NCBI GenBank assembly: GCA_028713595.1
Contig: JAQTNZ010000022.1
Location: 1-13,786 of the forward strand
Direction: 5' to 3'
Origin: Methylovulum sp.
Lineage (GTDB): Bacteria; Pseudomonadota; Gammaproteobacteria; Methylococcales; Methylomonadaceae
DNA length: 13,786 nt
Position numbers and translations under genes: made by a program. The notes beneath the pieces are model-generated. The model was given only the letters and a program-made list of their open reading frames with translations, searched no databases and was not told the origin of the DNA. Positions 4,855 to 13,786 of this stretch are shown in pieces. How positions within the stretch are numbered: position 1 is the first letter of the stretch; each line of letters begins with the position of its first letter.

Positions 4855-5241
4855 ATGGAATATTTATTCGAAGATGTAAATTTATCCAGCATCTTTTTTT
4901 CTAAAAATGGCCGGACACTTAATATCGAATTTATCAATATGCACGATGGTGGGTTTCTTGCCGGATTAATTTTAGACCATCTGATGATTTTCAATTATAA
5001 CAATGCCTTTGATGACGATGAAGAGGGCTTGCCTGTCTATGTTGGTGAGGTGACGTGCCGAGAACTTACGGCTAAGGAAGCGCCCTTGGAGCTGCTTAGG
5101 CTTGGCTACCTATTTATTAAACACGAAGGGGGTATAATCGGCCCTGCTGCGGGGAAGCTTTTTCTTCTTCATATAGCAGGCGGGGAGGTGTCTATTGATA
5201 TTGTCTGTGGCAATTACAACACCGCAAGACGCATTCCGTAA
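4855..5241 (+). CDS. Small hypothetical protein downstream of the sulfatase
   Basis: The 128-residue product starts MEYLFEDVNLSS and has AGGGAA about 5 nt upstream of the ATG, a good ribosome binding site. It begins 35 bp after the sulfatase stop and could share its transcript. It has no signal peptide or membrane helix. Alternating hydrophobic residues suggest mainly beta structure, with an acidic loop (FDDDEEG, about residues 52-58) and a glycine-rich turn (HEGGIIGPAAG). The layout (strand, INMHDGG turn, strand, acidic loop, short helix, strands) resembles small single-domain proteins often seen as immunity-type or accessory proteins, but I cannot place it in a named family. No polymorphic toxin is present beside it. 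A cytoplasmic location is inferred from the lack of a signal. Confidence 0.7.
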   Translation: MEYLFEDVNLSSIFFSKNGRTLNIEFINMHDGGFLAGLILDHLMIFNYNNAFDDDEEGLPVYVGEVTCRELTAKEAPLELLRLGYLFIKHEGGIIGPAAGKLFLLHIAGGEVSIDIVCGNYNTARRIP

Positions 5242-5268
5242 CGTGATAAGGTGTATTCTATTTATAGT

Positions 5269-5312
5269 AATATATTGATTGTTAATAATAATTTATTAAC
5301 TTAATGGCAGTG
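5269..5312 (+). repeat. 44-bp AT-rich interspersed repeat, solitary copy
   Basis: This unit opens AATATATTGATT and ends TTAACTTAATGGCAGTG. It matches 11891-11934 at about 37 of 44 positions with equal length and no gaps. A further 44-bp copy lies reversed at 11673-11716, and a partial one at about 11740-11779. Here it is a single unit between the hypothetical gene and the glutamine amidotransferase, while the other copies build the large palindrome upstream of mutS. Confidence 0.75.
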
Positions 5313-11201: not shown

Positions 11202-11618
11202 ATGACCGAAGAGATACAGATTCCGCGTAAAATTGCTAACCAACTGCTGCATATCGCCCAGCTTTCGCCTGAACAGGAGGTGTGTGGCCTGTTAGGGGGT
11301 AAGGCGGGGGTGCCTAGCCGTTGCTATCCTGTCGCTAATGTCGCCGAGTTACCTGCGCAACGCTTTTTACTAGATCCGGCGGGGCAGGTCGCAGCTTTCA
11401 AGGCCATGCGCGAGAGCGGTGAAAGTTTGTTGGCGATTTATCACTCCCACCCCCATGCCCCTGCCATACCCTCGGCAACGGATTTGGAGCTGTCCGAATA
11501 CCCAGAGGCCTTGTATTTGATTATCTCTTTGGATACTAAGGGCATTTTGGAAATGCGCGGGTTTTATCTGGAGCCACAAGGTAGCCGTGAGGTGTCGTTG
11601 GTGTTGGCTGAAGATTAA
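11202..11618 (+). CDS. M67-family (JAMM/MPN+) metallopeptidase
   Basis: The 138-residue product is a minimal JAMM zinc peptidase. E26 in EVCGLLGG is the catalytic glutamate. The zinc ligands are H81 and H83 in HSHPHAPAIPSATD together with D94, giving the H-x-H-x10-D spacing of the family. Bacterial members of this size often remove C-terminal residues from small sulfur carriers or ubiquitin-like proteins such as ThiS/MoaD/CysO types and are found near ThiF/MoeB-like genes; none is visible here. No signal peptide, so cytoplasmic. The ATG at 11202 has no obvious Shine-Dalgarno, and the protein begins MTEEIQIPRKIANQLL, a normal start for the family. It precedes mutS on the same strand, separated by the palindromic element. 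Confidence 0.9.
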   Translation: MTEEIQIPRKIANQLLHIAQLSPEQEVCGLLGGKAGVPSRCYPVANVAELPAQRFLLDPAGQVAAFKAMRESGESLLAIYHSHPHAPAIPSATDLELSEYPEALYLIISLDTKGILEMRGFYLEPQGSREVSLVLAED

Positions 11619-11672
11619 GGGGCCTGTTGGCCGTGAGGCCGCCGTTTATCCTTTACTTCTCCCTTTGACCCC

Positions 11673-11989
11673 TGTTGCCATTAAGTTAAGAGGTTAATTT
11701 TTATAATCAATATATTCCATCGTTCCCACGCTCTGGTGTCACTGCCATTAAGTTAAGCATTTTTATATTTATTATCAACTAGATAAAATTATCGTAGGTC
11801 GGGTTAGCGTTAGCGTAACCCGACATTATTTGAGCGGCACACGTCGGGTTACGCTATCGCTAACCCGACCTACATCGTATTTTTCAATACAATATATTGA
11901 TTATTAATATAAATATCTTAACTTAATGGCAATGACGCTCCGGCGTGGGAACGATAGGTAATTGATTTCCCATTAACCTAATGACAGTG
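11673..11989. repeat. Large nested palindromic element flanked by 11-bp direct repeats
   Basis: The whole 317 bp is an imperfect inverted repeat in layers. The centre has two 31-bp arms (11794-11824 and 11843-11873) that match at 30 of 31 positions; each arm is itself a hairpin with 9-bp stem gtcgggtta / taacccgac. Outside are 37-bp arms (11721-11757 and 11917-11953) beginning cgttcccacgc and carrying the TTAACTTAATGGCA end of the 44-bp repeat. Outermost are degenerate copies of the same end (TGCCATTAAGTTAAG near 11677; its reverse near 11972-11987). The 11-mer CCTTTGACCCC occurs exactly at 11662-11672 and 11990-12000, like a target-site duplication. There is no coding sequence inside. A MITE-like, non-autonomous element is the best reading. 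It ends about 12 bp before mutS. Confidence 0.8.
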
Positions 11990-12012
11990 CCTTTGACCCC
12001 CCGCTATTTTTA

Positions 12013-13786
12013 ATGACTTCCAGCCAGACATCCCACACGCCGATGATGCAGCAGTATTTCCGCATCAAGGCCGATTATCCTGACACCCTGCTGTTTTACC
12101 GTATGGGTGACTTTTACGAGCTGTTTTTTGACGATGCCAAAAAAGCCGCGCAGTTGCTTAATATTACCCTGACTAGCCGAGGCAATTCGGGGGGGGAGCC
12201 GATTGCGATGGCGGGCATCCCTTACCATGCGGCGGAAAATTATCTGGCGCGGTTGCTGAAAAGCGGCATTTCGGTGGCGATTTGTGAGCAAATCGGCGAC
12301 CCCGCCACCAGTAAGGGGCCGGTCGAGCGTAAGGTGGTGCGTATCATCACGCCCGGAACGGTGACGGATGAGGCATTATTGGAAGACCGCAAAGACAATC
12401 TGTTGGTGGCGGTGGTGCAAGTCCAGCAGGTTTATGGCCTTGCCAGTCTGGATTTGAGCAACGGGCGGTTTATCCTGCAAGAGTTGGATGCCCACGACCA
12501 GCTTATCAGTGAGATAGCCCGGTTGAATCCGGCGGAGTTGTTATTGAGCGAAGAGTGGGCCGCCCCGCCCGCGCTTAAGCAACGTAGCGGGGTGTGTAAA
12601 CGCCCGCCTTGGCATTTTGACGCGGCCAGCGCTAGGCAGTTGGTGCTGAGGCAATTTAACACGCTGGATTTGAAAGGCTACGGCTGTGATGCCATGCACA
12701 CTGCGATTGCCGCCGCCGGGGCGTTGTTGCAGTATGTCAAGGACACCCAGCAGGGGGCGTTGCCGCATATCCAAGGCATTCGCATTGAGCAAACTGACGA
12801 GTGCATTTTGCTGGATGCCGCCAGCCGCCGCAATTTGGAGTTGGACAGCCACCCGACCGGACACTTGCAATACACTTTGTTTGGGGTGTTGGATAGGACC
12901 GCCACGGCGATGGGTGGCCGTTGTTTGCGGCGCTGGCTGAACAGGCCGTTGCGCGACCATGAGGTGCTGAAAAACCGTTATGCCTGTGTCGGCAGTTTGC
13001 TGGAACACCAGCTTTACGCGCAGGTGCAAGCGGTGCTGCGGCAGGTGGGCGATATTGAGCGGGTCAGCTCTAGGATTGCCTTAAAATCGGCGCGGCCCCG
13101 TGATTTGTTGGTGTTGCGCAATACCTTGGCGATACTGCCGACGTTACAGGGCTGTTTGGCGGACAGCGACAACCCGCAACTGGAACTGTTGCGCGGCCAG
13201 ATTGGCGAACATCCTGAGCTGGTGCAGTTGTTGCAAAAAGCCCTGATCGACAATCCGCCGGTGTTGATCCGTGACGGCGGCGTGTTGGCGGCGGGCTTTA
13301 ATGAGGCATTGGATGAGCTGCGCAATTTAAGCCAAAATGCCGACCAGTTTTTGCTGGATATGGAAACGCGGGAAAAGGCCGCCACCGGCATTGCTAATCT
13401 AAAGGTCAATTATAACCGTGTGCATGGCTATTATATTGAAATATCCAATGCGCACGGCGACAAAATCCCCGCCCATTACACCCGCAAGCAAACCTTAAAA
13501 GGGGTTGAGCGCTATATCACCGAGGAATTGAAGGCGTTTGAAAACAAGGTGCTGAGTGCGCGGGAAAAATCGCTGGCCTTTGAAAAAGCCTTGTATGACG
13601 GCTTGCTGACCACTATCGCGCAATCGTTGGTGGTGTTGCAGCAGTGCGCCGCCGCCTTGGCGGAATTGGATGTGCTGGTCAATTTTGCCGAACGCGCCGA
13701 CACCTTGGATTTGTCGGCGCCGGTATTGGCGGAAAAGCCGGGCATCCGCATTAGCGGAGGGCGGCATCTGGTGGTCGAGCAGGTGT
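12013..13786 (+). CDS. mutS: DNA mismatch repair protein MutS, N-terminal part
   Basis: The frame is open from ATG at 12013 to the window's end, 591 codons of an expected ~855. MutS recognises mismatches and small loops in newly copied DNA and recruits MutL. The mismatch-reading motif F34-Y35-E36 lies in [16 protein letters not shown]. The connector follows ([48 protein letters not shown]). The lever domain has SRRNLEL and the [12 protein letters not shown] segment, and the clamp region has [13 protein letters not shown] and [10 protein letters not shown]. The Walker A ATPase site lies beyond the window. No frameshift or internal stop appears. No Shine-Dalgarno is visible before the ATG, and the palindromic element ends just upstream, so the native promoter may have been displaced or supplied by the element. 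Confidence 0.97.

Follow-up and report, generated by a model that had tools for sequence, protein, structure and literature searches.

Palindromic repeats and insertion sequences (IS) of bacteria meet in several described systems, and insertion of IS4-family elements into REPs, REPINs and IS inversions are all already in print, going by extracts of the papers concerned (PMC1525189, PMC3116915 and PMC3004938, respectively). For ISRm22, an IS4-family element of Sinorhizobium meliloti, the extracts of Tobes and Pareja (2006; PMC1525189) place copies in REP palindromes, nine of them in the text and 10 of 10 in the table. The hupL MITE of Candidatus Thiomargarita nelsonii is very abundant and bears an inverted repeat of 19 bp together with a direct repeat of 10 bp; its authors did not find a parental IS (PMC4853749, in extract). 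Inversions of bacterial IS by recombination between their terminal repeats are treated in the extracts of Ling and Cordaux (2010; PMC3004938).

The window analysed here, a stretch of 13,786 nucleotides on contig C22 of a Methylovulum sp. genome (G000, "own genome" below; a draft of 3.26 Mb in 587 contigs, 76.6% complete), holds a 317-bp palindrome at 11673-11989, just 5' of mutS. In all probability this palindrome is a two-step nest of MITEs carrying the ends of an IS4-family insertion sequence. The likeness to ISRm22, so far as the extracts describe it (PMC1525189), lies in IS4-family copies sitting in palindromes; in contrast to that account, non-autonomous MITEs also enter hairpins here, half of the IS copies that were scored lie elsewhere, and a target may itself be part of a MITE of the same end family, which leads to nesting. 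With the REPINs and GTAG-tagged REPs of the extracted literature (Bertels and Rainey 2011, PMC3116915; PMC3733652) the locus has in common an inverted, GTAG-headed palindromic doublet, which differs from the REPINs of PMC3116915, as extracted, in that it is enclosed by a MITE that has ends and a duplication of its own and in that no RAYT association was found. The hupL MITE (PMC4853749, in extract) is likened by description and not by terminal sequence, and a Thioploca contig (L140) carries the IS reported below.

The end and hairpin strings occurred in no open-licence PubMed Central full text searched, and among open-licence PubMed Central papers no description was found of MITEs that harbour such hairpins and also insert into them. 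The locus thereby offers a worked case of layered bacterial palindromes arising from repeated insertion of end-matched MITEs into MITE-borne hairpins, and joins IS-derived MITEs and REP-like palindromes, two repeat worlds that are usually handled apart. It also provides a ready-made comparison in nature (element absent; outer element with the inner one in either orientation) for the behaviour of a palindrome before a mutation-rate gene, any consequence of the palindrome for mutS itself being speculation.

Architecture of the palindrome

The original prediction, made from the letters of the window, described three nested inverted-repeat layers with degenerate ends, bounded by an exact 11-bp repeat and ending about 12 bp from the mutS start, and each part of this description was borne out. 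Inverted-repeat searches returned a centre layer at 11794-11824 and 11843-11873 (31 nt, 97% complementary), a middle layer at 11719-11757 and 11917-11955 (39 nt, 85%) and a third at 11675-11716 and 11891-11932 (42 nt, 88%), the last joining the outer left end to the inner right end because both elements carry the same terminal repeat. The flanking 11-mer CCTTTGACCCC has exactly two copies on the + strand of the window (Table 1), the right one stopping 12 bp short of the mutS ATG. Folded as single-stranded DNA, 11662-12000 reaches -86.3 kcal/mol, where 100 shuffles give -28.8 +/- 3.9 (z -14.6) and none of them folds as stably, and the list of open reading frames contains none of at least 80 aa that overlaps 11673-11989. 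The downstream gene, open to the contig end, we take to be mutS, judged by its protein sequence, which is also the name that the original prediction gave it, and the upstream gene is presumably JAB/Mov34-like.

The motif GCCATTAAGTTAAG occurs three times in the palindrome (11677 and 11744 on the + strand, 11917-11930 on the minus strand), and a fourth, degenerate copy at 11972-11989 forms the outer right end; the palindrome therefore contains two same-ended elements and not one. The previously noted degenerate ends are the terminal repeats of the outer element, which differ from CACTGCCATTAAGTTAAG by 3 mismatches each, those of the inner element differing by 0 and 1; the divergence of the outer ends counts against the reading as nested MITEs. 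The outer hairpin CGTTCCCACGC...GCGTGGGAACG is split by the 195-bp inner MITE, and when the inner target is rejoined, 10 of 13 positions form palindromic pairs (ATCGTTCCC-ACGCTCYGGYGT-GGGAACGAT). A MITE-like insertion with target duplication and several repeats inserted into one another had been put forward as alternatives, and both apply together: the 11-bp duplication surrounds the outer MITE, and a second MITE lies inside it.

The inner MITE is identical at 194 of 195 positions to a copy on contig C11 of the same genome, and therefore one of the two moved recently. The duplication around this near-twin is perfect (12/12), that at mutS matching at 10/12 only, and the imperfect copy counts against the reading as nested MITEs.

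Table 1. Parts of the palindrome and the neighbouring genes (window coordinates)
Feature	Position	Strand	Remark
JAB/Mov34-like gene (presumed), upstream	11202..11618	+	
Left 11-bp target duplication of outer MITE, CCTTTGACCCC	11662..11672	+	11/11 match to right copy
Outer MITE, left arm	11673..11718	+	begins with degenerate terminal repeat TGTTGCCATTAAGTTAAG
Outer hairpin, left half, ATCGTTCCCACGC...	11719..11739	+	ends in left 12-bp duplication of inner MITE
Inner MITE, left 12-bp duplication, ACGCTCTGGTGT	11728-11739	+	10/12 match to right copy
Inner 195-bp MITE, ends CACTGCCATTAAGTTAAG / CTTAACTTAATGGCAATG	11740..11934	+	
Central REP-like doublet, two inverted GTAGGTCGGGTTAGCG... units	11794..11873		18-nt spacer between units
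Inner MITE, right 12-bp duplication, ACGCTCCGGCGT	11935-11946	+	
Outer hairpin, right half, ...GTGGGAACGAT	11935..11955	+	includes inner right duplication
Outer MITE, right arm, degenerate terminal repeat ATTAACCTAATGACAGTG	11956..11989	+	identical in G014
Right 11-bp target duplication, CCTTTGACCCC	11990..12000	+	
mutS (presumed)	12013..13785	+	open to contig end; 3' end outside window

The MITE family in own genome and relatives

Other copies of the element, on whose presence in related genomes the original prediction depended, are plentiful. BLAST matches to the element region number 110 in the own genome and occur in 26 of the 41 genomes searched, own included. With at most 1 mismatch, CACTGCCATTAAGTTAAG is found in all 9 genomes scanned, 155 times in the own genome (72 + 83), 56 times in the sister genome G014, 62 times in G018 and 7-30 times in each of six others, the backwards control giving 0 in all nine. 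Reading of 51 own-genome loci, a biased sample picked for matching the element, yielded 41 innermost end-pairs that were classified by motif into type R, with the GTAGGTCGGG doublet (10), type H, with a GTTCCCAC-type hairpin pair (8), and type F, with a CCGTTCG/GCTCACCACGAACG palindrome (23), leaving no copy in any other class. Most of these copies (38/41) measure 180-250 bp, at least 3 ends fall within 420 bp at 14 of the 51 loci, and the nest form of the mutS palindrome is seen again at other loci. The copies are short, free of transposase and multicopy; their terminal repeats are those of an autonomous IS4-family element (18-bp CACTGCCATTAAGTTAAG ends), and their duplications have the same length as its own (11-12 bp in both).

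A duplication of 10-12 bp with at least 80% match was present at 16 of the 41 own-genome loci. At the other 25 no readable duplication exists, several of the elements being visibly half or recombined, which counts against a nest of MITEs. The rejoined flanks of 12 other MITE insertions were sought in G014, G007, G006 and G019, and three of them have clean empty sites in G014, ungapped across the junction with 60 bases on each side: L091 (120/120), L116 (118/120) and L098 (113/120, a figure derived from the alignment score). Among nine further aligned pairs, L108 in G014 and L116 in G007 run ungapped through the junction at about 75% identity, while L116 in G006 and L096 in both G019 and G006 cross it with gaps, at low identity or with little sequence to the right. 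The last four pairs are one-sided or start near the junction; in one of them, L118 in G014, the site is filled by another MITE.

Several copies depart from the plain form. L091 and L118 are composite MITEs whose left and right ends come from different elements and are surrounded by a single duplication; such composites may move as units, the L091 site being empty in G014. At L009, L090, L114 and others (G000, G014) one arm, or both arms symmetrically, are longer, because ATTTATGCCC(C)GTGGGT or a similar sequence separates the hairpin from the MITE end; this extension is accounted for neither by the consensus end nor by a simple duplication of the target. Within the window itself, a lone right arm of the same family (ATATATTGATTGTTAATAATAATTTATTAACTTAATGGCAGTG) lies at 5265-5312, about 24 nt past an open reading frame ending at 5241, and no left end was seen near it.

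An autonomous IS4-family partner

Loci with a PF01609 match were read at 32 places, 30 of the 83 matches in seven genomes and both matches in the own genome. Two of them, both in G018, carry perfect 18-bp CACTGCCATTAAGTTAAG ends 1397 bp apart that enclose an open frame of 433 aa; one of the two elements is flanked by an exact 11-bp duplication, ACGCTCTGCGT, and the other lacks it. Besides its PF01609 match, the G018 transposase scores 160.6 bits against the NF033592 IS4-family model (cutoff 115), and it has the Y-R-E-K spacing, which is the IS4-family signature.

Relatives of this transposase are encoded at 39 loci in named genomes, and at 11 of these both ends are found 1317-1430 bp apart with 0-3 mismatches per end. 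Direct repeats flank these complete IS exactly in six cases (11-12 bp) and imperfectly in four (8-10 of 11), L142 having none. L130 and L131, counted among the 11, are apparently the two G018 elements (100% and 94% matches); set aside from the count were an end-pair at L164, which is 1159 bp long, lacks a duplication and has 4 mismatches in one end, and another in L130 of 1719 bp, which spans two elements. The hosts include Methylococcaceae, Crenothrix, Methylocaldum, Candidatus Contendobacter and Thioploca. In the genus, G018 alone has the full-length IS, G003 having an 84% fragment that breaks off where its contig stops. A transposase remnant matching one and the same part of the protein was noticed on contig C52 of G006, of the same genus, and in Methylovulum sp. 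STC_68, probably a single sequence under two names. The same or nearly the same IS ends also appear at contig ends in Advenella and an Alcaligenaceae MAG (L146, L148, L162, L163, L165 and L166), and this occurrence of the end sequences suggests that the element may have spread beyond methanotrophs.

A transposase of this IS4 kind was not found in the own genome as assembled (76.6% complete), where PF01609 gave two partial matches only, neither with CACTGCCATTAAGTTAAG ends; this too counts against a nest of MITEs. The element resembles IS4-family IS (IS4, ISPa1635-like) in its DDE transposase, which exceeds the NCBIfam IS4 cutoff, and in its 11-12-bp duplications, and annotated plasmid relatives, among the 15 records listed of 51, are named "IS4 family" or "IS4-like element ISPa1635 family" transposase. 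It differs from them in that the transposase is 28-43% identical to the listed plasmid relatives, in that Nterm_IS4 (PF13006) was found in none of the 20 genus genomes searched (0/20), the transposase having come to light via PF01609, and in that hairpin targets are frequent. A sequence search among solved structures gave no match to the transposase at E 1.

Hairpins as insertion targets

Insertions with a readable duplication, and these only, were scored for hairpin targets by restoring one duplication copy and counting complementary pairs, out of 13, about the duplication axis, with a threshold of at least 9. This threshold was reached by 5 of 10 IS and 6 of 19 MITE insertions, compared with 0.25% of 20,000 random positions; the six MITEs include the inner insertion at mutS, and the own genome alone contributes 3 of 16. 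Most of the 11 hairpin targets come from one repeat family and are thus not independent, and the remaining half of the scored IS copies have plain-sequence targets.

The duplicated 11-12-mers are nearly their own reverse complements, so the loop bases were compared by eye. At L101, L112, L130, L134, L135 and L219 the repeat is exact in direct orientation, loop bases included, and these are therefore duplications. The flanks of L131 and L132 match better inverted (10/11 by eye) than directly (8 and 9 of 11), and target duplication there is unproven. The IS at L135 sits in a hairpin of another sequence, CCCCCGGCTCTGCCGGGGG, a single case that hints at target shape rather than sequence.

Counts of uninterrupted, exact GTTCCCACGC-N2-6-GCGTGGGAAC hairpins were also considered as a measure of target saturation, G000 having 0 (155 ends), G001 24 (8 ends) and G015 10 (26 ends). 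This use of the counts was rejected: G006, G007 and G019 also have 0, with 30, 14 and 28 ends, and the pattern admits exact hairpins only. At one outer site occupied in both sister genomes (G000 C336, G014 C42), G014 has a MITE with hairpins and G000 a composite with the inner type, a pair that supports nesting loosely, the left part differing as well.

The mutS locus in relatives

Loci of the upstream gene were fetched to the number of 30; nine of them, each from a different genome and the own one among them, also reach the mutS start, and the outer element is present before mutS in two of these nine genomes, G000 and G014. In G014 the outer insertion is the same, at the same base and between the same 11-mers. 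The left stretch (11-mer plus arm) agrees at 55/57 positions, both differences lying in the left arm, and the right stretch (partial hairpin half, arm, 11-mer and the next four bases) at 62/62, which amounts to 2 differences in 119 bases compared; the genes agree at 1471/1498 (mutS) and 399/417 (upstream gene).

In the seven relatives compared that lack the insertion, the gap between the upstream gene and mutS measures 49-169 nt. It had been proposed to look for an allele with a single CCTTTGACCCC copy at the junction, and relatives free of the palindrome yet bearing both 11-mers were to speak against an insertion. No such relative appeared. In G007 (L030), the nearest one without the element, the gap measures 49 nt and contains CCTTTG once but not the complete 11-mer, so that the single-copy state is visible there in part: 6 of 11 bases align. 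A strict single-copy junction was thus not seen at mutS, which counts against the reading as nested MITEs, although such junctions were seen for the three other copies with empty sites in G014.

The gap before mutS is a recurrent repeat site, also among more distant relatives. In G019 (L031; 169 nt) it holds half of an R-type MITE, with neither CCTTTGACCCC copies nor the hairpin, and in G006 (L032; 138 nt) a different palindrome, GGGCATCTTGCCCGC.

Proposed mechanism and alternative explanations

In the sequence of events that we propose, an outer MITE with the CGTTCCCACGC hairpin would have entered 12 bp before mutS and duplicated the 11 bp of CCTTTGACCCC, after which a second MITE of the same end family would have entered the axis of that hairpin and duplicated 12 bp (ACGCTCYGGYGT); the second step falls on the hairpin axis, and so each insertion would add another palindromic layer. 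The first step draws on an anatomy common to the sister genome, the second on anatomy and on the same arrangement at other loci. The inner MITE would have brought its own central palindrome, the GTAG-headed REP-like doublet, and both would have been moved in trans by a DDE transposase of the IS4 family that recognises CACTGCCATTAAGTTAAG ends and probably prefers palindromic targets without requiring them. By extension, and with confidence that falls somewhat short of even, we suggest that these MITEs are self-propagating landing pads: the palindromes at their centres, one type being preferred by the same transposase, would serve as new targets, the family would grow by nesting, new composite MITEs (left end of the outer element, right end of the inner) would move as units, and the mutS hairpin would have been hit separately in two sister lineages.

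The original prediction suggested that the palindrome could affect the mutS level and the mutation rate and be a cruciform hazard. The inner MITEs of G000 and G014 stand in opposite orientations at mutS, which is a hint of instability at this palindrome and the only sign of it. Separate insertions into the same hairpin in the two lineages are, on balance, the favoured origin of this difference; the competing account, to which we give appreciable but clearly lesser credence, is a single ancestral inner MITE that was inverted between its arms and then exchanged one arm and its spacer with other copies. Inversions between terminal inverted repeats of bacterial IS are on record (PMC3004938, in extract) and could account for the orientation in G014, a simple inversion being insufficient to explain why one arm and the spacer differ. 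Compared with 19 other copies, the G014 inner MITE is closest to those of G000 on C11 (0.912) and at mutS (0.882). The differences between the two mutS copies are unevenly spread in a mosaic, one arm agreeing at 52/54 while the spacer and other arm hold most changes, and a G014 copy at the end of C5 keeps the arms of the G014 inner MITE exactly or nearly so with a different spacer, so copies do exchange parts. All of this suits inversion and exchange. Against it, the inner elements agree at only 172/195 ungapped (9-12% different) when the outer layer and duplications differ at 2 of 119 bases, identity is 96.7% between two MITEs that lie within the same flanks in the two genomes (C434/C383), and the inner junctions are unlike, G000 showing a 12-bp duplication and G014 an extra 17 nt in each arm. 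G000 C26 and G014 C294 are 96.9% identical as sequences. A tree of 20 inner-type MITEs was left unused for this choice, with 3 of 17 inner branches starred and the rest mostly unresolved.

The nest of MITEs as a whole was also weighed against three explanations of other kinds. Under the first, a RAYT (tyrosine transposase) would have moved a REPIN/BIME cluster and the outer parts would be mere decoration. This would agree with a centre in which a GTAG-headed REP-like unit stands twice in inverted orientation, the two copies 97% complementary, and with BLAST matches around this region in many genomes of the genus. It is nevertheless very unlikely, given that the unit which moves shares its 18-bp ends and its duplications of 11-12 bp with an IS4-family element, that MITEs with the same ends carry other centres (R 10, H 8 and F 23 of 41), and that the own genome, an incomplete assembly, has no Y1_Tnp match. 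Nor did the GTAGGTCGGGTTA unit (at most 1 mismatch) occur beside Y1_Tnp within the fetched stretch at any of 30 loci scanned, of 60 genus matches listed, and because no RAYT association was found we use the name REP-like doublet instead of REPIN. Domestication, in which the structure is kept as an attenuator, insulator or promoter regulating mutS, would fit the retention of the outer layer in both sister genomes while the inner layer turned over, and the position of the palindrome between genes that stand 49-169 nt apart in relatives; we judge it improbable, since common descent by itself would lead to joint retention, elements of this kind occur at many other loci, and consensus scans gave no terminator-like site and three weak promoter-like matches (1.4 +/- 1.2 in shuffles). 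That the palindrome is an assembly artefact might be feared of a metagenome-assembled draft in 587 contigs, palindromic repeats being prone to misassembly; the same outer insertion in G014, at the same base and with the same 11-mers yet around a different inner element, and the same nest form at other loci make this scarcely credible.

Other repeats and matches in the window

Rfam searches of 11500-12100 returned sub-threshold families only (MIR6217, 43.9 bits against 110; P9, 16.6 against 43), which we attribute to chance similarity with a palindromic sequence. A different hairpin repeat, GCGCGGGCATC...GCCCGC, occurs at 1596, 2281, 2340, 8703 and 8735 of the window, and it yields frames that encode the peptide GARASCPQ, among them the beginning of the open reading frame listed at 1581.
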